From Mycobacterium sp. SMC-2 (lineage in GTDB: Bacteria; Actinomycetota; Actinomycetes; Mycobacteriales; Mycobacteriaceae), in the NCBI RefSeq assembly GCF_025263485.1, contig NZ_CP079863.1, positions 4,154,001 to 4,218,000 on the forward strand: a stretch of 64,000 bases of DNA, read 5' to 3'. The notes under the pieces were generated by a model. The model saw only the letters and a list, made by a program, of their open reading frames with translations. It ran no database searches and was not told where the DNA came from. Below are positions 6,447 through 63,105 of the stretch, one piece after another (position 1 is the stretch's first letter; the number at the start of each line of letters is the position of its first letter). The position numbers were made by a program, and so were the translations under genes.

Positions 6447-7301
6447 GTGGAAGCCCGAGACCAGGTTTTGATCACCGTCGCGGAGTTGGCTGAGCTCATC
6501 GAGGCCGGCGATCCGTTAGCCATCCTTGACGTCCGTTGGCGGCTCGACGAGCCCGACGGGCGGCCGGCCTACCTGCGGGGCCACCTCCCGGGCGCGGTGT
6601 ACGCGTCCCTCGAGGACGAACTGAGCGATCACACGGTCGCCGGACGCGGCCGCCACCCGCTGCCGTCGGGGAGCGAGCTCCAGGCCGCCGCCCGCCGATG
6701 GGGGGTCCGGCGGGACTCGCCGGTGGTGGTCTATGACGACTGGAATCGCGCCGGTTCGGCGCGCGCCTGGTGGGTGTTGACGGCCGCCGGCCTGCCGAAC
6801 GTCCGCATTCTGGACGGTGGGCTGGCCGCCTGGCGCTCGGCCGGCCGTGGCCTCGAAACCGGCCCTGTCACACCGCAACCCGGAAATGTGACTGTGCTGC
6901 ACGATGATCTGTATGCCGGATGCCGACCCACCCTGACGGCCGAGCAAGCCGGCACCGGCGACGTGACGTTGCTCGATGCGCGAGCGCCCGAGCGCTTCCG
7001 CGGCGAGGTCGAACCGCTCGACCCCGCCGCCGGGCACATCCCCGGGGCCACGAACCTGCCGAGCACCGCCGTCCTGGCCGCCGACGGCACGTTCGTCGGC
7101 GGCGACGCGCTCGTCCGACTGCTGGCCGACTGCGGGATCGAGTCTGACGGCGCGCTGGCCGCCTACTGCGGCTCGGGCGTGACCGCCAGCGTCACGATCG
7201 CCGCGCTCGCGGCGCTGGGCCGGGAAGCAGCCCTTTTTCCCGGGTCGTGGTCCGAGTGGTGTTCGGACCCGGGCCGCGCGGTCGCCGTCGGACCCGGATA
7301 A
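6447..7301 (+). CDS. sseB: Thiosulfate sulfurtransferase (rhodanese), SseB
   Basis: A 284-residue two-domain rhodanese. The N-terminal domain (ILDVRWRLDEPDG...VVVYDDWNRAGSARAWW) has Asp instead of the catalytic Cys. The C-terminal domain carries the active loop YCGSGVTA with Cys241. It transfers sulfane sulfur to acceptors such as cyanide or thiols in the cytosol. Length and sequence match M. tuberculosis SseB (Rv2291). The start is GTG 6447, with AGGAGG 7 bases upstream. Its stop is 3 bp from the stop of the convergent nucleosidase gene. Confidence 0.92.
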   Translation: MEARDQVLITVAELAELIEAGDPLAILDVRWRLDEPDGRPAYLRGHLPGAVYASLEDELSDHTVAGRGRHPLPSGSELQAAARRWGVRRDSPVVVYDDWNRAGSARAWWVLTAAGLPNVRILDGGLAAWRSAGRGLETGPVTPQPGNVTVLHDDLYAGCRPTLTAEQAGTGDVTLLDARAPERFRGEVEPLDPAAGHIPGATNLPSTAVLAADGTFVGGDALVRLLADCGIESDGALAAYCGSGVTASVTIAALAALGREAALFPGSWSEWCSDPGRAVAVGPG

Positions 7302-7304
7302 CGG

Positions 7305-8258
7305 TCAGGCACCCGTCCAGCTCCGCAGGAAGGCAGCGGTCACCCGCGCGGCGTTGTTGGCGGCGATCCGCTTGTAGCGGAAGAACTGGACGGGGAAGCC
7401 CGGCAGGTGAAGTGGGTCGCCCGGGCCGTCCGTAATGCCCCGGATGCCAAGGAACGGGATACCGTGCGCGTCGGCCACGCCCTGCGCGGCCGCGGTCTCC
7501 ATGTCCGTCGCGTCAAAGGCCGGGTCCGCCGTCGAGACGACGTTCAGGTTGCTGATCAGGGCGCTTCTCAGCCAGGGGCCCGCCGCCCGCCGGAAGTTGC
7601 CGGTATAGCGGAGCGATCGGTCCGGCGCGCTGCGGGGCTGGCAGCCGAAAACGTCGCCGCCGTTCGGGATGCACGGGAACGCCACGCCGTTGTTGTTGTC
7701 CCAGCTGCAACCGTCACCGCCGACCACGACTTGCGGCCGGCGTCGCAGATCGATCCTCCGGACGACGCTTTCCAGTGGGACAGAGAGCTTCTCGGCCGTC
7801 GCCAGCATGGCGGGATCCACCGGGTGAAACGTGTTGCCGTTGTCCAGTGTCCAGCGCGCCGGTACGGCCACGTCCGCGATGCTGGTGCGCCCCGCCCCGC
7901 CGGCGACGCCCGAAAATACCACCGCGCCAAGGGCGAATCGGGCGCAGGCTACCGCGGTGGTGTCGACGGCGTTCACCAGGCCGATGCCGGTCATCGCCAC
8001 GATCACCTTCGTGCCGGCGATCGCGCCGAGATAGAAGTGCCGACGGTCGGCGATCACCACCGGATCGGGATCGAGCGTGGTGTGCGACAGCACCGCGTCG
8101 GCCTCGGCCGGAAACGCGGACAACACCAGCGTGCGTCGTGCCACACCCACCGCCCCAGTAAACGCCACCACGGCCGCGTCCGGACACAGCGGCTTTGCTG
8201 ATTCCGGCCCTGCACCGGCAGGCCAGCGGTTAGTCTCAGCGGCGTTGCAGCCAGGCAC
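7305..8258 (-). CDS. Phosphorylase-superfamily nucleosidase (MTA/SAH nucleosidase-like)
   Basis: Up to 317 residues of the PNP/UDP phosphorylase fold. Visible motifs are [25 protein letters not shown], the nucleoside-binding DMETAA, and the catalytic-Asp region [12 protein letters not shown]. These are features of 5'-methylthioadenosine/S-adenosylhomocysteine nucleosidases. An insert around [23 protein letters not shown] carries three cysteines and is unlike compact bacterial enzymes, so the substrate may differ. The start is uncertain: GTG 8258 gives a 30-residue leader with no clear signal, while GTG 8171 or 8168 begins just before the first beta strand. Confidence 0.75.
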
Positions 8259-8396
8259 GGAGGAGCACCTACGCCACCGACGCGGAGATCTTCCCTAAGA
8301 TGAGCCATGACATGATGCTCGATCCCGGGTGGCGCGCCGTCGCCGAACGAATCCACGCGTGGCTCGAAATATGTGTGCCCGCAGGCTGACTCCGCG

Positions 8397-48678: not shown

Positions 48679-50064
48679 ATGGCCGATGTGAGTACGCTTC
48701 CATCGGTGGAACTGGGCGTTTTGGGACCTCTCCAGGTCCGGCAAGGCGGGGCGCCCGTCACTATCCCGGGCGCCAAGCCTCGCGCGATCCTGTCGATGCT
48801 CGGGCTGCACGGCGGTTCGGTCGTATCGGCCGACACGCTCGTCGAGCTGCTCTGGGGCGAAGACCCGCCACGCACCTCGGCCAAGGCCCTACAAACCCAT
48901 ATCTCCTCGTTGCGTCGCACCCTGGGCGACGGCTTTGTTCTGACGGCGGGCGCGGGTTGGACGCTGGCCGACACCAAGGTCGATGCCGCGCGCTACAAGT
49001 CGGCCGCCCGACTGGGACGCCACGCCGCCGCGGCCGGCGACACCAGCCAGGCGGTGGCCCGCTTCGAGGAGGCGCTCGCTCTGTGGCGTGGAATCCCCAA
49101 GCTGCCCGACGGCCGGCGAGGAACCTCCGAGAAGACACGGTGGATCGAGGGTCATGCCGCGCAGGTGGAGGATCGGGCCGATGCGCTGCTCGCGACGGGC
49201 CGGGCCGCGGAGCACATCGGTGAGCTCGAGGCCGCGGTCACCGATGCGCCGCTGCGCGAACGACGCTGGGGCCAGCTGATGCTCGCGCTCAATCGCGCCG
49301 GCAGGCAGGGCGAAGCGCTTGGCGCATACCAGCGTGCGCGCGCCCTGCTCGCCGAAGAACTGGGGGTGGACCCGGGACCGGATCTTCGCCGACTGGAGGC
49401 CGCGATCGTCGCGCAGGACTCCGCGCTGGAAATACCTGCCGTACAACAACTCTCGTCGGTGACGCGCGCCGTGACGTTCCTGCTGACCGACATCGAAGGG
49501 TCGACCGCCGCGTGGGAGGCAGACGCCGAAGCCATGGCGGTAGCGCTGGCGCGACACGACGAGCTCATCGAGCAGGTCGTGACGTCGCGTGGAGGGCGCC
49601 TGATCAAGACCCGCGGCGAGGGCGACGCCACGTTCTCGGTTTTCGAGCGGCCGTCGGCGGGTGCCGCCGCACGCACATGGTCGGTCATCGCACGGCAATG
49701 CGCAGCGTTCAATCGACATGAACCCCCCGCAGCGGACTGGGTCACCATCGACCACCGGCAGCTTGCTGTAATCGACGCGAGCGATCCGCAATCAGCCATG
49801 GCTATTTGGGATTCCACGCCGAACTTCAAGATTCACATCGAGGCAGTACATCGGCTCAGCAGTTTCGGAGCGGTCGCCACCTATGCGGCGCATGGGACCC
49901 CAGAAGGACTCGACGCCGAGTGGCGAGTGATCCAACTTTTGACCGTTCGCGGCGACCGGATGGACCGCTGCGAATTATTCGACGAGGCAGACCTCGACGC
50001 CGTGCTGGCGCGGTTCGACGAGCTCACCTCACCGAGGCCGCTACTTGGCAGCGCTAGTGAATGA
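48679..50064 (+). CDS. BTAD regulator with truncated cyclase domain and C-terminal SnoaL-like-associated domain
   Basis: A 461-residue chimeric protein. Residues 10-95 are an OmpR/AfsR-type winged helix (LGVLGPLQVRQGG...LQTHISSLRRTLG) and 100-250 are a BTAD TPR-like domain. Residues 262-326 are only the first half of a class III cyclase (TFLLTDIEGSTAAWE, KTRGEGDATFSVFERPS). At about residue 328 it passes directly to a C-terminal domain (RTWSVIARQCAAFNRHE...FDEADLDAVLARFDEL) which I recognise from the ends of large mycobacterial cyclase-BTAD-ATPase proteins. The missing half of the cyclase means no catalysis. It is divergent from the phosphatase-kinase gene and overlaps the S51-type gene. Confidence 0.8.
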   Translation: MADVSTLPSVELGVLGPLQVRQGGAPVTIPGAKPRAILSMLGLHGGSVVSADTLVELLWGEDPPRTSAKALQTHISSLRRTLGDGFVLTAGAGWTLADTKVDAARYKSAARLGRHAAAAGDTSQAVARFEEALALWRGIPKLPDGRRGTSEKTRWIEGHAAQVEDRADALLATGRAAEHIGELEAAVTDAPLRERRWGQLMLALNRAGRQGEALGAYQRARALLAEELGVDPGPDLRRLEAAIVAQDSALEIPAVQQLSSVTRAVTFLLTDIEGSTAAWEADAEAMAVALARHDELIEQVVTSRGGRLIKTRGEGDATFSVFERPSAGAAARTWSVIARQCAAFNRHEPPAADWVTIDHRQLAVIDASDPQSAMAIWDSTPNFKIHIEAVHRLSSFGAVATYAAHGTPEGLDAEWRVIQLLTVRGDRMDRCELFDEADLDAVLARFDELTSPRPLLGSASE

Positions 50065-53775: not shown

Positions 53776-54909
53776 TCAGCTGGCACCGACTTCGAACGTG
53801 AATTCGTGGTCGCAGATGCGAATGCGGTCGCCATCGGCCAGCGTCGCGCTGGTGCGGATCCGCCGGCCCGCTACATCGACTCCGTTGGCTGACTGCAGAT
53901 CTGTAATGACAAAGCTGTTACCGGTGTCGACGATCACCGCGTGGAAACGGCTGACGGTGTCATCGTCGAGTGCGATGTCATTCTCGGGAAGGCGCCCGAT
54001 CCTGGTGGCTGTCCCTACCAGCGGATAACGACGTCCGGCGGCGTCGCGCAGATGGCCAACGGTGGACCCGCGGCCGCGTCCGGTGCGCCACTGGAAGGTG
54101 CCGGCGGCACGCTTAGCGGTTGCGCGGGCCGCGTGCTTGACGTCCAGCGGCTCTTGGCGAAGGACCTTCTCATGCAGACTCCGCAACGTAGGCCCAGGGT
54201 CGATGCCCAGATCGTCGGCGAGCAAAGCCTTCAGCCGACCGTATGCGTCCAGTGCATCGTATTGGCGTTCCGCCAGATAGTAGCCGGTTATCAACTGTGC
54301 CCACAGCGGTTCTCGGTAGGGGTGCTCGGCCACGAGCCTTTCCAACTCTCCGATGATGGAGTGAGTTCGCCCGCAAGCGATTTCAGCCTCTGCCCGCACC
54401 GTCAGCGTCACCAGCTTGTCCTCCGCGAGCGCGGCGGCGAAGGCATCGACGAATTCAAAGTCCCGCAGATCCTCGAGCACCGGGCCGCGCCACTCGGCCA
54501 GTGCGGCCGATAGGTGGCCGCTGGCCTGTTCGAACCTGCCCGCCGCGGCCGCCTCAATTCCCGCTTTCTGCGCGATGGCGAAGCGGTCGACGTCGCAAGC
54601 CTCGTCGGGGACGTTCAGCCGATACCCCGGCTGGGCGCTGGCCAGAACGGCGGCGGCATCCACGCCGGCACTGCTGACCAATCGGCGGAGCCTGGACACG
54701 TGCGCGTGCAGGCTACCCCGAGCCTCCGGTGGTGGGCACTGGCGCCAGGCAGCGTCAATCAGCGAGTCAATCGAGACTGTGCGATTTCGGTTGATCAAGA
54801 GCGTGGCCAGCACCGCCCGTTGCTTTGCCGGTCCCAGTGGCAGCTCGTTGCCGTCGGCACTTATCTGCAACGGTCCCAACACTCCGAACCGGAGAGCGTT
54901 CTGGCCCAT
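53776..54909 (-). CDS. EmbR-like transcriptional regulator (DBD-BTAD-FHA)
   Basis: A 377-residue regulator from ATG 54909. Order: OmpR-type winged helix (FGVLGPLQISADGNELPLGPAKQRAVLATLLINRNRTVS), BTAD domain (about 105-260), and FHA domain (about 290-375) with IGRLPENDIALDD, VSRFHAVIVDTG and ANGVDVAGRRIR. The FHA motif residues (Gly-Arg, Ser-x-x-His, Asn-Gly) are all present. In M. tuberculosis, EmbR binds phosphothreonine on PknH through FHA and activates embCAB. This gene lies 62 bp after the kinase gene on the same strand, so the kinase is its probable partner. Confidence 0.9.
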   Translation of the reverse strand: MGQNALRFGVLGPLQISADGNELPLGPAKQRAVLATLLINRNRTVSIDSLIDAAWRQCPPPEARGSLHAHVSRLRRLVSSAGVDAAAVLASAQPGYRLNVPDEACDVDRFAIAQKAGIEAAAAGRFEQASGHLSAALAEWRGPVLEDLRDFEFVDAFAAALAEDKLVTLTVRAEAEIACGRTHSIIGELERLVAEHPYREPLWAQLITGYYLAERQYDALDAYGRLKALLADDLGIDPGPTLRSLHEKVLRQEPLDVKHAARATAKRAAGTFQWRTGRGRGSTVGHLRDAAGRRYPLVGTATRIGRLPENDIALDDDTVSRFHAVIVDTGNSFVITDLQSANGVDVAGRRIRTSATLADGDRIRICDHEFTFEVGAS

Positions 54910-54971
54910 CGCGGTGGTAATCCTTTCAGCTCGGTGGTGGTTGAAACCCATTGTCGTGCCGGCCCGCGCCG

Positions 54972-56357
54972 TCACCACAGGTATACGCGGGCGCTGCTGC
55001 CCCCGATGCAGGTGATCCAGCTTTCCGCGGGGCGCTGCTGGCAGTGCATGAGGAAGTTCGAGCCGGTGCACAGCGCACCGGGCACGGTCTTGCAGTCAAC
55101 CGCGCCGGGCGCCGAGACGGCGCGCGGCAGCGGGCTGGCGTCGCCGTATTCAGCCCAGTACGACGTCAGCACGCTATTGGCGAAAAGGCATGAGGTTTCG
55201 GGAGTCCCACGTCCGGCATGGGTGCCGAAGCCCGTAGCCGCCGGCAACGAGAACCCTTGGTCGCAGGACTGATGCAGGCTACTGAGGTCGGGTCCGGTGA
55301 TTAGGGGAGGCTGGACGGCGCGTGGCGGCGGTGCCTGCTGTTGCCCAGTCGACCGATGGGTGAGAAGTCCGATGACGGTGCCCGCGACAATCAGGCCCGC
55401 CGCGACCCCGATCACGGTCGGGAGCACCCAGCTGCGCCGGCGTTCTTCCCCATCGGTGCGTCGGTCTGTCGGGCCGTCGGACGGCACCACGGCGGTCGCG
55501 AACGGCCGCGTGCGGTCCCCGTCAGCCGACGAGCTTTCCAATGCGTGCTGCGCGGCGCTGGCAAGGTCACCCGCCGTTGCGTACCGCTCACCGGGGCGTT
55601 TGGCCATGCCGCGGGCGACGACTTCGTCGAACGCCGGGGGAACGCGCCTATTGGCGGCGCTCGGCCGCGGCGGCGGCACGGCGAGGTGGGCCGCCACCAC
55701 ATGCTCAAGGCTGTCACCGGCGAACGGGGCCTCAGCGGTCAGCGACTCGTACAAAACGCATGCCAGCGAGTAGACGTCTACAGCGCGTGTGGTCACCTTG
55801 TCGTTAAACCGTTCGGGCGCCATGTAATTCAACGTGCCGATCTGACTGCCGACCGTCGTCAGGCGGGGATCGGACATGGTCTGCGCGATGCCGAAGTCGA
55901 CGAGATACACGAAATCCGCAGGGGTGACGAGGATGTTCTGCGGCTTGACGTCGCGGTGGATCAATCCCTCGGCGTGTGCCGCGTCCAGCGCGGCGGCGAC
56001 TTGAGTGATGATGGCCACCGCCCGTGCGGGCGCCAGCGGTCCCTCCGCGATGAGGTCAAGAAGCGTCTGTCCCTGGACCAGCCGCATATCAATGTAAAGG
56101 TTGCCGTCGATCTCGCCCCAGTCGTGGATGGGAATGACGTGCGGCTCTTGCAGCATCGCCGCCGCCTCGGACTCCCGCTGGAACCTGGTCCGGAAGGTGG
56201 CGTTAGCTGAGGACTCTTCGGCGAGCACCTTGAGCGCGACGGTTCGCCTCTTGTCGGTGTCGTAGGCCTCGTACACCACCCCGCCGCCGCCCTTGCCGAT
56301 GCGGCGCGTGATGTCGTACTTGCCGAACGTCGTACCGACGCGCGCGTCCACCGCCAT
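54972..56357 (-). CDS. PknH-like receptor serine/threonine kinase
   Basis: A 461-residue transmembrane kinase from ATG 56357. The Gly-rich loop is IGKGGGGVVYE (20-30), Lys43 is in ALKVL, the catalytic loop is HRDVKPQN (134-141), DFG is at 154-156 and APE at 180-182. A juxtamembrane linker and a helix at about 311-333 (VLPTVIGVAAGLIVAGTVIGLL) lead to an extracytoplasmic domain of about 125 residues. That domain has six cysteines (SCDQ, SCLF, DCKT, LCTG, HCQQ, TCIG), as in PknH sensors. It probably phosphorylates the EmbR-like product encoded next. The secreted-protein run starts divergently 202 bp away. Confidence 0.9.
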   Translation of the reverse strand: MAVDARVGTTFGKYDITRRIGKGGGGVVYEAYDTDKRRTVALKVLAEESSANATFRTRFQRESEAAAMLQEPHVIPIHDWGEIDGNLYIDMRLVQGQTLLDLIAEGPLAPARAVAIITQVAAALDAAHAEGLIHRDVKPQNILVTPADFVYLVDFGIAQTMSDPRLTTVGSQIGTLNYMAPERFNDKVTTRAVDVYSLACVLYESLTAEAPFAGDSLEHVVAAHLAVPPPRPSAANRRVPPAFDEVVARGMAKRPGERYATAGDLASAAQHALESSSADGDRTRPFATAVVPSDGPTDRRTDGEERRRSWVLPTVIGVAAGLIVAGTVIGLLTHRSTGQQQAPPPRAVQPPLITGPDLSSLHQSCDQGFSLPAATGFGTHAGRGTPETSCLFANSVLTSYWAEYGDASPLPRAVSAPGAVDCKTVPGALCTGSNFLMHCQQRPAESWITCIGGSSARVYLW

Positions 56358-56559
56358 CCGCCTCGATTCCTCGGTTATCGAGGCAGTATCTCCCCTGGCG
56401 GCCAGCCGGTGCACATGTTTGCCGCAAAGCCACCACGACGGGGTCGGCAACCAGGCACAAGATCCGCGCAAGAAATGCGCAAGGCATCCGCCGCAGGCTT
56501 TGTGCGACCGGGCAGCGCGGCCCAGCGGAACCACGGCCCATTTACCGAAGGACACGAAG

Positions 56560-57780
56560 ATGGCCACAACGTCACGCCACCTGCGTCAGCGGACCCGGCT
56601 TGTACGACGAACGACGTCGATGACGCTCGCGCTGATGGCACTAGCGACAGGCTCGGCAACGATCACGCTCCCACCCACGGCACACGCGGGGCCCGAGGCG
56701 ATGGCGGCCCACGGCGTCGAGGCCCCGCTCGGGGCCGTCCCGTGGTCGCAGGTCGGTCCGGGTTGGATGCTCGCGATGTGGAGCCCGGTTCCCGGCTTGC
56801 ACCACGGCGAGTCACCGCCCCCCGGCTCACCAACATGGCGGACGGCCGCCACCACGCTGTATCTGGTCGACCCGGCGGGCGGCCGCTACCCGATTACCAC
56901 CTTCCCGCCTCCGGGCGACGGTGACAGCCCGAAGCTGGTCGACTGGTCGGGTGACGGGACCCGCGCCCTGTTCTCCAATATCGAGAAGGGCCAGACCGTC
57001 ATCACCGAGGTCAACTTGCGCAGCGGCACGCAGAAGACGTTCACCGTCGAAGGCACTCATCCAAACCCTCGGTACACCCGCCCCAGCGGCAAGGCGTTAT
57101 TCCTGGACAGGTGGGAGATGGCGGGGCCTGGGTCGCTTCAAAGAGTCGACCTTGCCGGCAACCATCAGCTGACGTACCCGGTCGGCCCGGACTACCGGGG
57201 ATATCTCGCCACACCAGACGGCACGCAGTTGGTGCTGGGGACGGCGTCCGGTCTGGGCCTCATGGGCAACGACGGCGTCCCAGGCAAAGCGCTGCCGATC
57301 GCCGGGCAGAAGGACTGCTCACCGACGCGGTGGTGGGACGCCGGCTCGACGATCGCCCTCACCCGCTGCGATAGCTCCGCCGGATCGCAGCTGTGGCTGG
57401 TGCCCATCGACGGCGGGAAACCGACCGCTCTCACCGCGCCGAACACCGGGCACGGCCCCGATTACGGCGACTTGAACGCGTGGCAACTCCCGGCCGGGAC
57501 GTACGTGCAGGCAGCCGGCGCGTGCGGCGTGGTCTATCTTGCCAAGCTCAACGACGACGGCACGACATCGAAGGTCTCGGTACCCGGCGTGAAAGGCGAC
57601 AGCGTCGTCGTGATCGGCGTCAACGGGGGCAACCTCGACCTCAAAGCCAGGGCGGGCTGCGGGGGCGGCCAGGCGCTCATCGACTACAACCCGGCGACCG
57701 GCACCTCAACCGTGCTGCTCGGTCCGCCCGTCAACGGCGGCGGCGTCATCAATGCGGTGCCCTACCCGGGCCAGCGGTAA
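56560..57780 (+). CDS. Secreted TolB-like beta-propeller protein
   Basis: A 406-residue protein from ATG 56560. The N-terminus has twin arginines (TRLVRRTTSMTLALMALATG) and a signal ending near AHAG, so Tat or Sec export is possible. The mature part shows repeated propeller strands (TTLYLVDPAGGRYPIT, KLVDWSGDGTRALFS, GYLATPDGTQLVL, SQLWLVPIDGGKPTAL) of WD40-like/TolB type. It is the first of five same-strand exported proteins. It may be a binding scaffold; no catalytic motif is seen. Confidence 0.75.
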   Translation: MATTSRHLRQRTRLVRRTTSMTLALMALATGSATITLPPTAHAGPEAMAAHGVEAPLGAVPWSQVGPGWMLAMWSPVPGLHHGESPPPGSPTWRTAATTLYLVDPAGGRYPITTFPPPGDGDSPKLVDWSGDGTRALFSNIEKGQTVITEVNLRSGTQKTFTVEGTHPNPRYTRPSGKALFLDRWEMAGPGSLQRVDLAGNHQLTYPVGPDYRGYLATPDGTQLVLGTASGLGLMGNDGVPGKALPIAGQKDCSPTRWWDAGSTIALTRCDSSAGSQLWLVPIDGGKPTALTAPNTGHGPDYGDLNAWQLPAGTYVQAAGACGVVYLAKLNDDGTTSKVSVPGVKGDSVVVIGVNGGNLDLKARAGCGGGQALIDYNPATGTSTVLLGPPVNGGGVINAVPYPGQR

Positions 57781-57795
57781 TCAGGAGCGATCAAC

Positions 57796-59214
57796 ATGAC
57801 CAAAACTACGCGCCGCCAACAACTTACGAGGCGCATTTTGATTGCGACGGCGACATTTGCGGCAACGATCTCGCTCGGCGCATGCTCGACGAGCGGACCC
57901 AACGCGGGGCCGTCTGGCGCGAGCCCCACCCGCTGCGCGGTCAACCCGTCCTCCGCGCCGGTGCCGAGCGTCGAAGAGTTAAGACCGGTGCCCGAGGTGG
58001 GTAGGGTCTCCGTCGCGCTGAGCGGCATCCCGTCGGGGACCGTCAAGCCCGGCGACCCACCAACCGAGGTCGATGTGACGCTATGCAACGACTCCCCCGT
58101 CGACTACCCGAAGGTCGGCGTCGTACTGGTGCTCGAGCGCTGCAGTTGCGCGACAAACAATTTGGGAATCACCGAGGGGAGCGTCGAGCGCTTCGACCCG
58201 GCCACCAACGCCTGGATCCAGTCCCACTATCCGTCCATGGGCACCGGAATGGACTACCTCATGGCGTACGACAACGTACAGGGGCTGCCGAAGGGCAAAT
58301 CCGTGACGCTGCGGTATCGGATCGCCCTCGACACCGCAATGACCGACGGCGCGGGCGGTGTGGAGGCCGTGGCCGTGACTCCTCATCCACTCGTTCAGAT
58401 CGGCAAGGCTGACTTGCCCTTCACCGTTTCGCATGACTCAACGGCTCCGTCGAATATGCCGACACCCCGACAAGCGGTGTTGCCTTTCAAAGGTCTCACC
58501 TATCCGAGCAACCTGGCGGCGGACGCGATCGGCAACGTCTATCTCACCGACTCATGGAATGACCGGGTGCTGAAGCTGCCGGCCGGATCGAACGAGCAGA
58601 CGGTACTGCCGTTCACGGGCCTGAATAGACCCGCCGGTGTCGCGGTGGACAGCGCCGGCGATGTGTTCGTCACCGATGCGGCCAACAACCGGGTGCTGAA
58701 GCTGCCGGCCGGATCGAACGAGCAAGCGGTGCTGCCGTTTACGGGCCTGGAGAATCCGCGCAATGTCGCGGTGGACGGCCGCGGCGACGTTTACGTCACC
58801 GACAGCAAGGTGCGGGTCGTCAAGCTGGCGGCAGGCTCCAACGAACAGACCGTGCTGCCGTTCACCGGCCTCAGGTGGCCCGGCGGCGTTGCGGTGGACG
58901 GCGCTGGCACTGTGTTCGTCTCGGACCCGAGCAACAAACGGATGCTTAAGCTGCCGGCCGGATCTCGCGACCAGACCGTGCTGCCGGTCGACGGCCATAA
59001 CGGCTCCATTGCGGTCGACTCCGCCGGTGACTTGTATGTCACGGACAGCGAAGGCAAGCAGGTGCTCAAGTTGCCGGCGGGGTCAAACGACGCGACCGTG
59101 CTGCCGTTCACCGGTCTCAACGGACCCAACGCTGTGGCGGTGGATGGCGGCGGCAATGTCTACGTCCTCGACCGCAGCGGCTTCGGCCGAGTCGTGAAGT
59201 TGGCAGCACGATGA
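57796..59214 (+). CDS. Lipoprotein with NHL beta-propeller (PknD-sensor-like)
   Basis: A 472-residue lipoprotein: the signal ends in the lipobox LGAC (Cys about residue 34). An N-terminal domain of about 190 residues follows (VEVDVTLCNDSPVDYPKVGVVLVLERCSC). Then come six or so NHL repeats of about 41 residues with the signature VLPFTGL...VAVD..GxVYVTD...VLKLPAGSN. The same repeat wording occurs in the extracellular sensor of PknD of M. tuberculosis, but here it is joined to a lipoprotein anchor rather than a kinase. It starts 15 bp after the TolB-like gene and overlaps the next gene by 4 bases. Confidence 0.85.
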   Translation: MTKTTRRQQLTRRILIATATFAATISLGACSTSGPNAGPSGASPTRCAVNPSSAPVPSVEELRPVPEVGRVSVALSGIPSGTVKPGDPPTEVDVTLCNDSPVDYPKVGVVLVLERCSCATNNLGITEGSVERFDPATNAWIQSHYPSMGTGMDYLMAYDNVQGLPKGKSVTLRYRIALDTAMTDGAGGVEAVAVTPHPLVQIGKADLPFTVSHDSTAPSNMPTPRQAVLPFKGLTYPSNLAADAIGNVYLTDSWNDRVLKLPAGSNEQTVLPFTGLNRPAGVAVDSAGDVFVTDAANNRVLKLPAGSNEQAVLPFTGLENPRNVAVDGRGDVYVTDSKVRVVKLAAGSNEQTVLPFTGLRWPGGVAVDGAGTVFVSDPSNKRMLKLPAGSRDQTVLPVDGHNGSIAVDSAGDLYVTDSEGKQVLKLPAGSNDATVLPFTGLNGPNAVAVDGGGNVYVLDRSGFGRVVKLAAR

Positions 59215-60131
59215 TGCGGCGCAAAATCGCGGCTTTGGTCCTACTAGCGGTCAGCGCCTTCGGCATGAGCGGATGCAGCGGAACACCACCGTCGCCGCGG
59301 GCGATGGCCCCGACGCCGGCACCGGCGCCCCGACAGACCCTGCTGCCCTTCACCGGCCTCGAGAGTCCCCGCGATCTGGCGGTGGACGCCGTGGGCAACG
59401 TGTACGTCGCCGACCTTCATCACTCCGAAGACGAAGCGGGACACCCCTACGTGACCACCCGCGTGATCAAGCTGCCGGCAGGATCGAACAACCCTACGGT
59501 GTTGCCGCAGTTCGTTCATGCCGACCTGGCGGCGGACTCCGCGGGCGCCGTGTGGGTCATCGACGCCGCAAACCAACAACTGGTGAAGCTGGCGGCCGGC
59601 TCGGACATCCAGACCGTGCTGCCGTTGCCCGATCTCGGCTTGCGCGGCGAGGTACTAGCAGTGAATACCGCCGGCGCCGCTTACGGTATCGACGGCGGTG
59701 GGGTGTACCCCGTTGGTGGGTGCTGTGTGCCCGTCCACGTGGTGAAGTCGGAACCCGGGTCGCACGCCCCGACGGTGTTGCCGTTCACCCACATCCTCGG
59801 CCTCGGCGGAATGGCGGTGGACGCCGCCGGAAACGTGTACGTGGGCGACTTCAACCGGGTGCTGAAGCTGACGGCGCGGGCCGACACCCCAACGGAGCTG
59901 CCGTTCGATCTCGGCAGCGTTGTAGGTGTGGCAGTGGATTCCGCCGGAAGCGTGTACGTGGTCGACGCCGAGCGCAAGCAGGTGCTGAAGTTGGCGCCCG
60001 GGGCGGACAAGCCAATCGTGCTTCCGTTCACCGGCCTCAATCAGCCTGTACGGGTGGCGGTGGACGCCGCGGGCAGTGTCTACGTCACCGACGTCGGCAA
60101 CCACAACGTGCTCAAACTTGCGGCTGCCTGA
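59211..60131 (+). CDS. Second lipoprotein with NHL beta-propeller
   Basis: A 306-residue lipoprotein: the signal MMRRKIAALVLLAVSAFGMSGC has the lipobox MSGC. A short Pro/Ala linker leads directly to five or six NHL repeats (LLPFTGLESPRDLAVDAVGNVYVAD, VAVDSAGSVYVVDAERKQVLKL, GLNQPVRVAVDAAGSVYVTDVGNHNVLKL). One blade is interrupted by GVYPVGGCCVPVHVV with two adjacent cysteines. It overlaps the upstream NHL gene (ATGA), so the two propellers are made together and may bind each other or one ligand. Confidence 0.85.
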   Translation: MMRRKIAALVLLAVSAFGMSGCSGTPPSPRAMAPTPAPAPRQTLLPFTGLESPRDLAVDAVGNVYVADLHHSEDEAGHPYVTTRVIKLPAGSNNPTVLPQFVHADLAADSAGAVWVIDAANQQLVKLAAGSDIQTVLPLPDLGLRGEVLAVNTAGAAYGIDGGGVYPVGGCCVPVHVVKSEPGSHAPTVLPFTHILGLGGMAVDAAGNVYVGDFNRVLKLTARADTPTELPFDLGSVVGVAVDSAGSVYVVDAERKQVLKLAPGADKPIVLPFTGLNQPVRVAVDAAGSVYVTDVGNHNVLKLAAA

Positions 60132-60226
60132 TGCTCGGCGGATAACGCTTGGCGACCAATCCTTTTCGCCGCATAACTGAAGGCCGTACCCAACGGGTTG
60201 AACCACACTCAAACAGGAGAACAAAG

Positions 60227-60889
60227 ATGAATCCAAAGCTTTCGGGTCTACTCGCCATCGCGATGGCGCCATTCGGTGTCGGCGTCGCGCCGCCCGCACT
60301 CGCGGACGCGGGGTGCGGGTCGGGCGGGCCACCGCCCGGCGCGGCGAGCAGAGATGTCAGCGATGTTTATGGCCAGCCCGCCACGCTGTGGCTCACCAAC
60401 ACGATCGTCGGCATCTCCACCGCCCACGGCTACGGCCAGGCAGAGATACACAGCCCCAGCCCCCTTCAGCGACCCGCGCTGCTGATCGACGCCCAACAGG
60501 ACGGCAACCACCAGATCATCGTCTACACCGGGCGGGAGGCAATCCTCCACGCGGTCTCGGGTTGCACCATCACCCCGGTCGTCGATCAGCGGGGCGCGTC
60601 GTTCCGTTTAGACATTGGGCACCGGATGGGCAACGGCGACGGCATCGGCTGCAGCGACTTGGGCGACGGCCGTCGCCTGGTCGGGTTGCTGCAAATGCGG
60701 GACGAACGCGACCAACCGCTGTTGAGTGTGCGCCGCACCGAGATCGTCCTGAATGGCGCGACGGCCACGATCGGCCGCTCCGATACGGTTTCCGCGACGT
60801 CGGATCAGGACCCAGCCTGGACCACGGCGGGCGACATCAGTTGCGGCGACCTGACCATGGCGCGGGACGGCGTCGAGGCACCTTACTGA
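60227..60889 (+). CDS. Secreted hypothetical protein
   Basis: A 220-residue protein from ATG 60227, with CAGGAG about 11 bases upstream. The signal peptide MNPKLSGLLAIAMAPFGVGVAPPALA is followed by a mature domain with four cysteines (AGCGSG, GCTITP, GCSDLG, SCGDL). Strand-rich segments include HQIIVYTGREAILHAVSGC and GDGIGCSDLGDGRRLVGLLQM. The layout recalls secreted FG-GAP/VCBS-like ligand-binding proteins, but no family is certain. It belongs to the exported-protein run. Confidence 0.72.
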   Translation: MNPKLSGLLAIAMAPFGVGVAPPALADAGCGSGGPPPGAASRDVSDVYGQPATLWLTNTIVGISTAHGYGQAEIHSPSPLQRPALLIDAQQDGNHQIIVYTGREAILHAVSGCTITPVVDQRGASFRLDIGHRMGNGDGIGCSDLGDGRRLVGLLQMRDERDQPLLSVRRTEIVLNGATATIGRSDTVSATSDQDPAWTTAGDISCGDLTMARDGVEAPY

Positions 60890-60963
60890 GACGCCGCGGC
60901 CCGTCACGCAAGATGTTCCCCAAGCACCCCGATATCTGACCCACCCCGAGAAGGAAACGCGAA

Positions 60964-61707
60964 ATGAAAGCGACAACCCACCGCCCATTTGTGGCCCTCG
61001 CCGCGACGGCGGTGATCGCCTGTGCGGCGGGGTGCGGTACGTCAAGCAACATTCGTCAGACCACGTCGACGGCGGCTACCACGTCCGTTGCGGCGCAAGG
61101 ACAGTCGATGTGCGTCGATCTCGGCGGAACCGTTGGTCCCGACGGCATCTGCCACGTGCGGAATGCGACATCCACCTACCAGACCGAGATGAGCTTTCCC
61201 ATCGACTACCCGGACATGTCGGCCGTCGGCGCATTCCTGAAACGGGACCGCGACGACTTCGTCGACTGGGTCGCCGAGGTGGGACCGCAACAGAAGCGTG
61301 GCCGGCCGTATCAATACATCGTCACCGCCAAGACGTTTCGGTCGGGAACCCCGGGCGCGGGCACCCAAAGCCTGGTGCTCAAGATCGACAACGACACCGG
61401 CCTGGCCCACGAAGGCCACCCAAACACCACTTTCCGGGCGTTCAACTTTGACCTCGCCAAGCACACCGCGATCACGTTCGACACGTTATTCAAGCCCGGT
61501 ACGAAACCGCTTGATGTCCTCAACCCGATCGTGCGGCGCGAGTTGGACGCGCCGACAGCCGAACTCGATGAGAAGACCTACCAAAACTTCGCGATCACGA
61601 ACGAGGCGGTGATCTTCTTCTTCGGCCAAGACCAGGTGGTCCAGGACAACGCCGGGCCACACCAAGTCAAGGTGCCCCGCGTCGACCTGGCAGCGCTGCT
61701 GGCCTGA
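60964..61707 (+). CDS. MPT64-family lipoprotein (DUF3298 domain)
   Basis: A 247-residue lipoprotein with lipobox AAGC (Cys about residue 24). After a Ser/Thr linker it resembles secreted MPT64: SFPIDYPDMSAVGAFLKRDRDDFVDWVAE, YQYIVTAKTFRSGTPGAGTQSLVLKI, TTFRAFNFDLAKHTAITFDTLF, and the conserved YQNFAITNEAVIFFFGQDQ...AGPHQVKVPR. Classical MPT64 is a soluble secreted antigen; this relative is anchored by a lipid. The ATG 60964 has AAGGAAA upstream. It is last in the exported run. Confidence 0.85.
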   Translation: MKATTHRPFVALAATAVIACAAGCGTSSNIRQTTSTAATTSVAAQGQSMCVDLGGTVGPDGICHVRNATSTYQTEMSFPIDYPDMSAVGAFLKRDRDDFVDWVAEVGPQQKRGRPYQYIVTAKTFRSGTPGAGTQSLVLKIDNDTGLAHEGHPNTTFRAFNFDLAKHTAITFDTLFKPGTKPLDVLNPIVRRELDAPTAELDEKTYQNFAITNEAVIFFFGQDQVVQDNAGPHQVKVPRVDLAALLA

Positions 61708-61767
61708 ACCGCTATTGACCAGCGGAATGACTGGGGCGGCGAGGCCCAGGCAGCGTAGTGTTTGGCC

Positions 61768-63105
61768 ATGAACGTCGCGGGCAGGGCACCGGACATTCAC
61801 TATGCCAAGAGCGGTGACCTGAACATCGCCTACTCCGTGACCGGGAAAGGGCCCGACCTCGTGGTCGCGCCCGGCTTCATCTCGCACCTCGAGATCATGT
61901 GGGAAGAGCCATCGGTCGTCCACTTCTTTTCCCGGCTTGCCTCCTTCCGGCGCGTGGTCACATTCGACAAGCGAGGCACAGGCCTCTCGGATCCGGCGAC
62001 CGACGCGCCGACGTTGGAAGAGTCCGTCGACGACCTGCGCGCCGTTATGGACGCGGCCGGATGTGAAAGTGCCGACCTGGTGGGCATTTCCGAAGGTGGC
62101 ACGATGGCGATGCTGATGACGGCCAGCCACCCCGACCGGGTGAAGGCGCTCGTCCTATACGGCACGTTCTCCCGGCTGCTCCGAGCGCCCGACTACCCGC
62201 TCGGCGTTACCGAGGAGCAGCTGTCGGCGTTGGTCGAGTTGAGCGCCAAGGGCTGGGGTGAGGGCATTGGACTGGGTGGTTGGGCTCCGAGCCGGCGGGG
62301 CGACGCCGAACTGCGGCGGTGGTGGGGCCGGCTGCAGCGCATGGCCGCCAGCCCGGGCATGGTCCGCAACATATTTGCGCTTTATCCGCAATTGGACATC
62401 CGCGACGTGCTGCCCGCGATCCAGGTGCCGACGCTCGTGGTCCATCGGCGGGACGACCGGATGGTGACTGTCGAGATGGGTCGCTACCTCGCCGACCGCA
62501 TCGCCGGGGCCAAATTCGTCGAGGTCGACGGCACCGACCACCTGTTCTTCACGGGCGACGCCGACGCCGTGCTCGACGAGATCGAGGAGTTTCTCACCGG
62601 TGTCCGGCCGTTGCCTGCGGTCGAGCGCGTCCTGGCCACCGTGCTGTTCACCGACATCGTCGACTCCACGAAGCGAGCCGTCGAGCTCGGAGACGAGCGA
62701 TGGAAGGAGTTGCTCGGCAGGCACGACGCCCAGGTCCGCCGCCAACTCGAGCGCTTCCGCGGCGATGAGGTCAACACGACGGGCGACGGCTTCCTCGCCC
62801 GGTTCGACGGACCCGCCCGAGCGATCCGCTGCGCCATGGCGATCCGCGACGTGCTGCGGAGCCTGGGTCTCGAAGTGCGGGCGGGCGTTCATACGGGCGA
62901 GGTCGAGCTGCGCGGCGACGACATCAGCGGCATCGCCGTCCATATCGCGGCGCGTGTGGCGGCAGCGGCCGGGGCCGGCGAGGTGCTCGTCTCGCGCACC
63001 GTCGTCGATCTGGTCGCCGGGTCGGGCCTGCGCTTTGCGGCTCGCGGCGAGCACACCCTCAAGGGTGTGGCGGGCGAGTGGCCGCTGTTCGCGGTCGAGG
63101 GTTGA
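61768..63105 (+). CDS. Alpha/beta hydrolase-class III cyclase fusion
   Basis: A 445-residue fusion. Residues about 1-275 are an alpha/beta hydrolase (GPDLVVAPGFISHLE, nucleophile elbow VGISEGGTMA with Ser, His in DGTDHLFF). Residues about 285-445 are a class III nucleotide cyclase: LFTDIVDSTKRA with the metal Asp, NTTGDGFLARFDGPARAIRCA with the second Asp, and GIAVHIAARVAAAAGAGEVLVS. The position before TTGDGF, often Lys for adenine recognition, is Asn here. ATG 61768 is preferred to TTG 61762. It may make cAMP in response to a hydrolase ligand, or be a non-canonical cyclase. Confidence 0.85.
   Translation: MNVAGRAPDIHYAKSGDLNIAYSVTGKGPDLVVAPGFISHLEIMWEEPSVVHFFSRLASFRRVVTFDKRGTGLSDPATDAPTLEESVDDLRAVMDAAGCESADLVGISEGGTMAMLMTASHPDRVKALVLYGTFSRLLRAPDYPLGVTEEQLSALVELSAKGWGEGIGLGGWAPSRRGDAELRRWWGRLQRMAASPGMVRNIFALYPQLDIRDVLPAIQVPTLVVHRRDDRMVTVEMGRYLADRIAGAKFVEVDGTDHLFFTGDADAVLDEIEEFLTGVRPLPAVERVLATVLFTDIVDSTKRAVELGDERWKELLGRHDAQVRRQLERFRGDEVNTTGDGFLARFDGPARAIRCAMAIRDVLRSLGLEVRAGVHTGEVELRGDDISGIAVHIAARVAAAAGAGEVLVSRTVVDLVAGSGLRFAARGEHTLKGVAGEWPLFAVEG

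Follow-up and report, generated by a model that had tools for sequence, protein, structure and literature searches.

A predicted SARP-type operator as a probable link between an EmbR-type regulator, its neighbouring kinase and divergently encoded exported propeller proteins in Mycobacterium

A 64-kb stretch of the Mycobacterium sp. SMC-2 genome (64,000 nucleotides, in the following referred to as the window) harbors a Ser/Thr kinase gene and a gene for an EmbR-type regulator, which are located divergently from five genes encoding exported proteins. The gap separating the two groups contains a predicted operator of the type described for regulators of the SARP family, and copies of this operator recur before other exported genes. 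Based on sequence comparisons, a signalling module in which one kinase acts through the EmbR-type regulator on a regulon of exported proteins is considered probable. The locus comprises the following genes and the gap between them:

53776-54909, minus strand: EmbR-type regulator, separated from the kinase gene by 62 bp
54972-56357, minus strand: Ser/Thr kinase (Pfam Pkinase, 1.6e-46)
56358-56559: divergent intergenic gap, 202 bp between the kinase gene and the TolB-like gene
56560-57780, plus strand: TolB-fold beta-propeller gene, first of the plus-strand exported set
57796-59214, plus strand: NHL lipoprotein 1, resembling the PknD sensor (NHL, 9.2e-29)
59211-60131, plus strand: NHL lipoprotein 2 (NHL, 1.8e-20)
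60227-60889, plus strand: secreted protein of unknown family (signal sequence by eye)
60964-61707, plus strand: Rv3036c-type esterase lipoprotein (DUF3298; NF043047, 222.9)

Spacings between the plus-strand genes amount to 15, -4, 95 and 74 bp from the TolB-like gene onward. Gene positions and families agree with the preliminary description of this DNA, which had reported a kinase and an FHA regulator on one strand and five exported genes on the opposite one across a gap of 202 bp. The LipJ-like lipase/cyclase gene starting 54 bp past the esterase gene (61762-63105) was considered as a further operon member and discarded, as it was not found at that place in 21 relatives.

The regulator is composed of a winged helix (Trans_reg_C), a BTAD domain as in SARP regulators and a C-terminal FHA domain, and matches M. 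tuberculosis EmbR (2fez) over its full length with 498 bits. Residues R306, S320, H323 and N342, which we take to be those of the FHA phosphothreonine site, are present and were kept in 87/87 EmbR sequences compared. The protein is classified from its sequence as a member of the EmbR family and not as EmbR itself, because its recognition helix differs at two base-contact positions and the gene order is reversed. Sixty EmbR paralogs and nine further distant EmbRs were compared. They belong to the 121 non-orthologous rows (69 used) that an EmbR search yielded in 148 evenly drawn Mycobacterium genomes, a set which also served as the prevalence sample. In 39 of the 60 paralog loci, a kinase with at least 50% identity is encoded downstream of embR on the same strand (within 500 bp in 38 of them). 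The kinase-first order thus reverses the usual one, in agreement with the earlier remark that it appears reversed from the M. tuberculosis embR-pknH pair.

The kinase features a catalytic domain, one transmembrane segment (by eye) and an ectodomain of approximately 110 amino acids. The catalytic residues K42, D135, N140 and D153 and six ectodomain cysteines (C364, C389, C421, C429, C438 and C449; numbered from protein residue 2) are invariant among 32 aligned sequences. Kinase residues 335-460, used as query, retrieved 323 proteins; among the 120 matches listed, those besides the window's own were 74-94% identical. For the catalytic domain, PknE (2h34) is the closest solved chain (327 bits). 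The PknH-type extracellular sensor domain, presumably the one named PknH_C in Pfam, had no match in the kinase at E <= 0.01. The initial label 'PknH-like' therefore holds only loosely, since PknE is the closest solved kinase and the ectodomain has no Pfam match. In the predicted structural model of the kinase, the ectodomain has a predicted local distance difference test (pLDDT) value of about 30, too low for a fold search.

Scanning genome contigs with the TolB-like protein yielded 21 Mycobacterium loci (L001-L021), 16 of which (L001-L016, the block loci, located in block genomes) carry EmbR and kinase genes divergent from TolB. Within the gap, the following elements were assigned:

56385-56390, minus strand: likely -10 element GATACT of the kinase promoter, within an CGCAGTATCTC island conserved in an alignment of 17 sequences
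56456-56483, plus strand: predicted SARP-type operator, three CRCAAG hexamers with an 11-bp period
56494-56499, plus strand: CAGGCT, predicted as the -10 element of the exported operon, with the A/T pair in 35/36 operator copies
56507, plus strand: predicted transcription start, A, with A at this place in 32/36 copies

The operator reads CACAAG-N5-CGCAAG-N5-CGCAAG and is the sole match at up to two mismatches in the window. A position weight matrix trained without the window copy assigned it a score of 67.5, compared with -7.9 for the next best site and maxima of at most -1.7 in 10 shuffles. Alignment of the window with the 16 block loci revealed that the conserved parts of the gap are the repeats, a short promoter core following them and the -10 island on the kinase side. 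Triple repeats with at most two mismatches were found in 15 of these 17 divergent promoters; L007 has two repeats plus one respaced, and L016 has none. Moreover, a sequence-blind triple-hexamer score calculated for the 17 promoters reached 16.82 out of 18 at period 11 versus 13.6-14.2 at periods 7-10 and 12-16, and amounted to 13.84±0.20 (maximum 14.29) in 100 mononucleotide shuffles. In L012 and L015, about 45 bp between the kinase -10 element and the operator are missing, whereas the operator keeps its distance from the promoter core on the TolB side; its position is therefore fixed with respect to TolB. As the distance between operator and kinase promoter is not kept, the idea that the former controls the latter was rejected.

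In order to describe the promoter, 36 operator copies from the block genomes and the window were compared, being at most 88% identical over 93 bases after near-identical and register-shifted duplicates had been dropped; positions are counted from 0, the first base past the third hexamer. An A at 11 and a T at 15 occur jointly in 35 copies, whereas other A/T pairs of the same spacing occur in no more than four; furthermore, 32 copies have an A at 23. The A11/T15 pair is predicted to belong to the -10 element and A23 to be the start. Eight copies, by our own reading of the strings, have an ATG with its first base at 22 to 24, as in leaderless genes. Counted from the predicted start, the hexamers begin at -51, -40 and -29. 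According to passages of PMC10936776, AfsR protomers occupy two 11-bp repeats of the afsS promoter (-40 to -30 and -29 to -19) and contact the first eight bases of each repeat, and SARP promoters are characterized by direct repeats with a spacing of 11 or 22 bp close to the -10 element. The window promoter, with its 11-bp direct repeats near the predicted -10, fits this definition, and repeats, -10 and predicted start match the published AfsR geometry within about 1 bp. That the regulator instead represses the operon is very doubtful: the repeats are situated around the -35 region, which would also suit a repressor, but their position and period equal those of the activator AfsR.

To trace further copies, genomes were scanned for CRCAAG-N5-CRCAAG-N5-CRCAAG at up to one mismatch, with the reversed pattern as control. 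The 16 block genomes contained 39 matches (some overlapping), distributed over 13 genomes, versus two for the control. Within the 148-genome draw, 32 matches were counted versus 20 control matches, comprising 10 versus 2 in the seven block genomes and 22 versus 18 in the 141 block-less ones. A gene with an export signal, as called by our own signal-sequence heuristic and not by a published predictor, follows 35/36 operators compared with 147/1500 random positions. Outside the block, operators of their own accompany a second TolB-NHL-NHL cluster (L168-L171), near which no kinase or EmbR match was found in the stretch examined; a further target is a small secreted protein present in 4/148 genomes. 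The operator reads into the gene of the latter in G023, G109 and G122, and in G057 it lies beside this gene on the other strand. Linkage of the regulator to the exported genes is thus supported by more than adjacency, because the divergent order is conserved, the gap carries a SARP-type operator and the same operator precedes other exported genes in the same genomes. The linked system suggested in the preliminary description is partly supported in this way, namely in the direction from regulator to exported genes.

Covariation of the recognition helix points in the same direction. In AfsR, base contacts are made via T88 and R92, as stated in part of PMC10936776, and these residues align to A69 and R73 of the regulator. 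Arginine occupies the R92 position in the regulator of the window as well as in 17/18 block EmbRs (L001-L016, L025 from G037 and L027 from G119), versus 0/60 paralogs and 0/9 further distant EmbRs. The exception, L016, has Asn at the R73 position and no operator, and its genome (G162) yielded no operator match at all. At the sequence level, the recognition helix thus covaries with the operator.

Conservation of the block, which had been proposed as a check, was found for the divergent kinase/EmbR and TolB arrangement (16/21 loci), whereas the other exported genes are variable: NHL lipoproteins, secreted protein and esterase come and go among the loci. Among the remaining loci, the L017 contig ends on the EmbR/kinase side, and L018-L021 contain more distant TolBs (36-61%) and no kinase-EmbR pair, with a 39% kinase nearby in L019. 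All 16 block loci originate from Mycobacterium, with TolB being 69-82% identical to the window's. This would be compatible with chance neighbours that have stayed adjacent because one clade inherited them from a recent common ancestor, an explanation regarded as exceedingly improbable: operators are also found in trans, in front of exported genes unrelated to these, and G119 keeps operator and promoter core though its first gene encodes a different exported protein. Within the draw, TolB relatives (E <= 1e-15) were detected in 23 genomes, and in nine of them TolB lies within about 5 kb of a kinase ortholog. Whether the exported genes occur mostly without the kinase pair, which had been named as a refuting observation, thus received a mixed answer. 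In general, the exported proteins are not tied to the pair and only their close versions are, because 14 of the 23 TolB genomes have no kinase ortholog nearby, whereas the pair adjoins TolB in 6/6 genomes with a TolB at least 75% identical. TolB is also within about 5 kb in each of the seven genomes with a close EmbR, the TolB of G119 being only a 53% relative; in G010 and G142, TolB and kinase are likewise within about 5 kb, and the G010 TolB match is fragmented, with an internal stop.

In loci L006, L008 and L016, EmbR and kinase genes are about 1 kb apart. The respective spacers (7228-8301, 7268-8251 and 7398-8376) contain an opposite-strand open reading frame resembling an exported serine hydrolase by eye, most clearly in L016. 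The kinase match of L005 (8513-9857) is split over two frames, so that this draft contig seems to carry an interrupted gene. A rearranged version was seen in L028 and L030, where the kinase ortholog and a 63-64% EmbR are arranged tail to tail, with esterase/NHL genes approximately 3-6 kb away and no operator match.

Several observations weigh against control of the exported regulon by kinase and EmbR. One operator copy (L158) lacks the -10 A/T pair. The general SARP rule given in passages of PMC10936776 places the 3' repeat 8 bp from the -10, while the distance here is 10 bp from the hexamer or 9 bp from an eight-base unit, a value depending on how the repeat is delimited. Operator L073 (G119:C86:80118), alone among the 36, directly precedes a gene without export signal; it encodes a 492-amino-acid protein that looks cupin-like by eye. 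G057 has four operator matches, of which two belong to a TolB-NHL-NHL cluster (L041), while the other two overlap each other and lie near the small secreted-protein gene, not reading into it; it has no EmbR of the block type (best 62%, with an Asn helix); another reader may therefore exist or the block was lost there. No operator with at most one mismatch was found in the block genomes G001, G037, G042 and G162, the first three having degenerate or respaced sites at the block and G162 none. A check of the 22 block-less matches, made for the forward pattern only, showed that 12 also fit the -10 A/T pair, and therefore the CRCAAG code is not exclusive to the block EmbR; other SARPs may use a similar CAAG code. 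Furthermore, the genomes are related, and counts are accordingly not independent. Finally, kinase orthologs (full length, at least 63% identity) were found in 16/148 genomes, besides one at 50% in G078, and nine of the 16 genomes lack a close EmbR.

The possible use of similar repeats by other SARPs also favors the explanation that the operator is read by another SARP, with kinase and EmbR being merely neighbours. A candidate is encoded in the window:

48679-50064: SARP-cyclase gene, BTAD and weak guanylate-cyclase match

This gene occurs near the block in 7/21 loci, there on the other side, and relatives are present in 16/16 block genomes and in G057 (88%). However, it was detected in 62/148 genomes, 56 of which are block-less and have operators at control level; in G162, two copies are present although the operator is missing; and in G119, which has the block with two operator matches, no SARP-cyclase was found at E <= 1e-80. 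Moreover, the recognition-helix change tracks EmbR. The SARP-cyclase is thus disfavoured as reader, and the explanation as a whole appears quite unlikely.

That the EmbR-type protein controls the operon while the kinase controls something else, or while several kinases feed the regulator, is a minor possibility to be taken seriously. It would fit the nine genomes with the kinase and without a close EmbR. Furthermore, parts of PMC9239209 report in vitro phosphorylation of M. tuberculosis EmbR by several kinases, and phosphorylated EmbR (pEmbR), with none detected in normal growth, was detected under acid and hypoxia. On the other hand, an EmbR at least 76% identical was found in 7/148 genomes and adjoins a kinase ortholog in all seven, as do the EmbRs of 16/16 block loci (at about 1 kb in L006, L008 and L016 and 62 bp in the window), and the FHA site is conserved. 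Control of the exported genes by the adjoining kinase through EmbR remains the favored interpretation.

The CRCAAG code is not claimed for all EmbRs, because period-11 repeats, searched de novo over the 300 bp flanking the 60 paralogs on each side, were not in excess. At three of these loci (L136, L138 and L139, with EmbRs of 58-59% and no kinase match), CRCAAG repeats are located nearby, upstream of small exported-looking open reading frames (six matches at up to two mismatches versus none for the reversed pattern). Five block-less genomes (L058, L063, L065, L070 and L071) have one promoter in common, with a CAAG triple repeat at the usual distance from the -10, which is among the 12 block-less matches mentioned above; the gene following it in L058 looks hemerythrin-like by eye, and another SARP regulon may be involved. 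A further common CAAG triple repeat fitting the -10 was observed in three block-less genomes (L055, L057 and L072).

Regarding the exported proteins, the product of 56560-57780 had no Pfam or NCBIfam match at E <= 0.01, including TolB models. Its AlphaFold model (pLDDT 85) has TolB (1crz) as best structural match (E 1.8e-9, TM-score 0.43, 16% identity), and it is classified from this model as a TolB-type propeller at fold level only; its export signal was called by the heuristic mentioned above. Leaving aside designed 'Pizza' proteins, the first NHL protein is matched best in the PDB by the PknD sensor 1rwi (294.5 bits). Lipoboxes were recognized by eye in both NHL proteins and in the esterase. 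The secreted protein 60227-60889 has no Pfam match at E <= 0.1 and relatives in 20/148 genomes. The product of 60964-61707 passes the cut-off of NCBIfam NF043047 (Rv3036c esterase; 222.9 vs 200), a family which we take to be MPT64-related. The esterase is common independently of the block, as relatives were detected in 136/148 genomes.

Gene order, operator, promoter geometry, regulon and helix covariation can be read from the sequences themselves, and the DNA-level steps of the following model appear well supported. The six-cysteine ectodomain of the kinase would sense an envelope signal. The kinase would then phosphorylate the neighbouring EmbR-type activator, which is probably co-transcribed with it, or dock with it via phosphothreonine–FHA contacts, as expected from family knowledge. 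By binding next to one another on the 11-bp repeats, which lie around -35, two or three activator protomers would recruit RNA polymerase in the manner of AfsR. In this way the divergent operon would be switched on and, in trans, other exported propeller and lipoprotein genes with the same promoter. A more speculative extension, rather improbable at present, is that the exported propeller lipoproteins are ligands or feedback partners of the six-cysteine ectodomain, so that the module would both measure its own surface coat and reset it, in a closed circuit. In that case, a family of mycobacterial SARP regulons of this kind would be defined by the CRCAAG code. The contact between propellers and kinase is conjectural. 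In simple terms, the pair is suggested to switch on a set of cell-surface proteins in some mycobacteria, so that what a mycobacterial kinase senses at the surface would be connected to defined exported propellers. For an EmbR-family protein, DNA code, start site, specificity residue and targets are hereby predicted, which makes the mechanism directly testable.

EmbR has long been studied. Among the open-licence papers listed, judged by title and abstract, none dealt with the block or with an EmbR operator code; in five passages of PMC12455991, 'embr' merely belongs to the word embryo. The main text of PMC9239209, a 2022 study, does not contain 'motif' or 'direct repeat', and passages of it report no decrease of embCAB transcripts in the mutant; 'direct repeat' is likewise not a term of the main text of PMC4238996. 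The M. ulcerans plasmid pair PknQ–MupFHA described there also consists of an adjoining kinase and FHA protein, the kinase binding and phosphorylating MupFHA, but passages of that article relate MupFHA to Rv3863 and not to EmbR. The NHL lipoproteins resemble the extracellular propeller of the PknD sensor (1rwi); unlike in PknD, they are free-standing and not fused to a kinase. With PknH–EmbR of M. tuberculosis, the locus shares a membrane Ser/Thr protein kinase beside a SARP-FHA regulator with a full-length EmbR match. In contrast, embR is located upstream of pknH there, according to passages of PMC9239209, and the kinase comes first here; the ectodomain has no PknH-type match; operator and exported targets are linked to the pair; and the SARP base-contact positions carry Arg/Ala here and Asn/Ser there. 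The Streptomyces system AfsK–AfsR–afsS resembles it in 11-bp repeats from -40 and in poor -35 and -10 elements (passages of PMC10936776), whereas here the regulator has an FHA domain instead of NOD/TPR, the promoter has three repeats with a CRCAAG core and exported propellers are the predicted targets. The new element is the operator in the 202-bp gap, and by analogy the module may work like PknH–EmbR and AfsK–AfsR.

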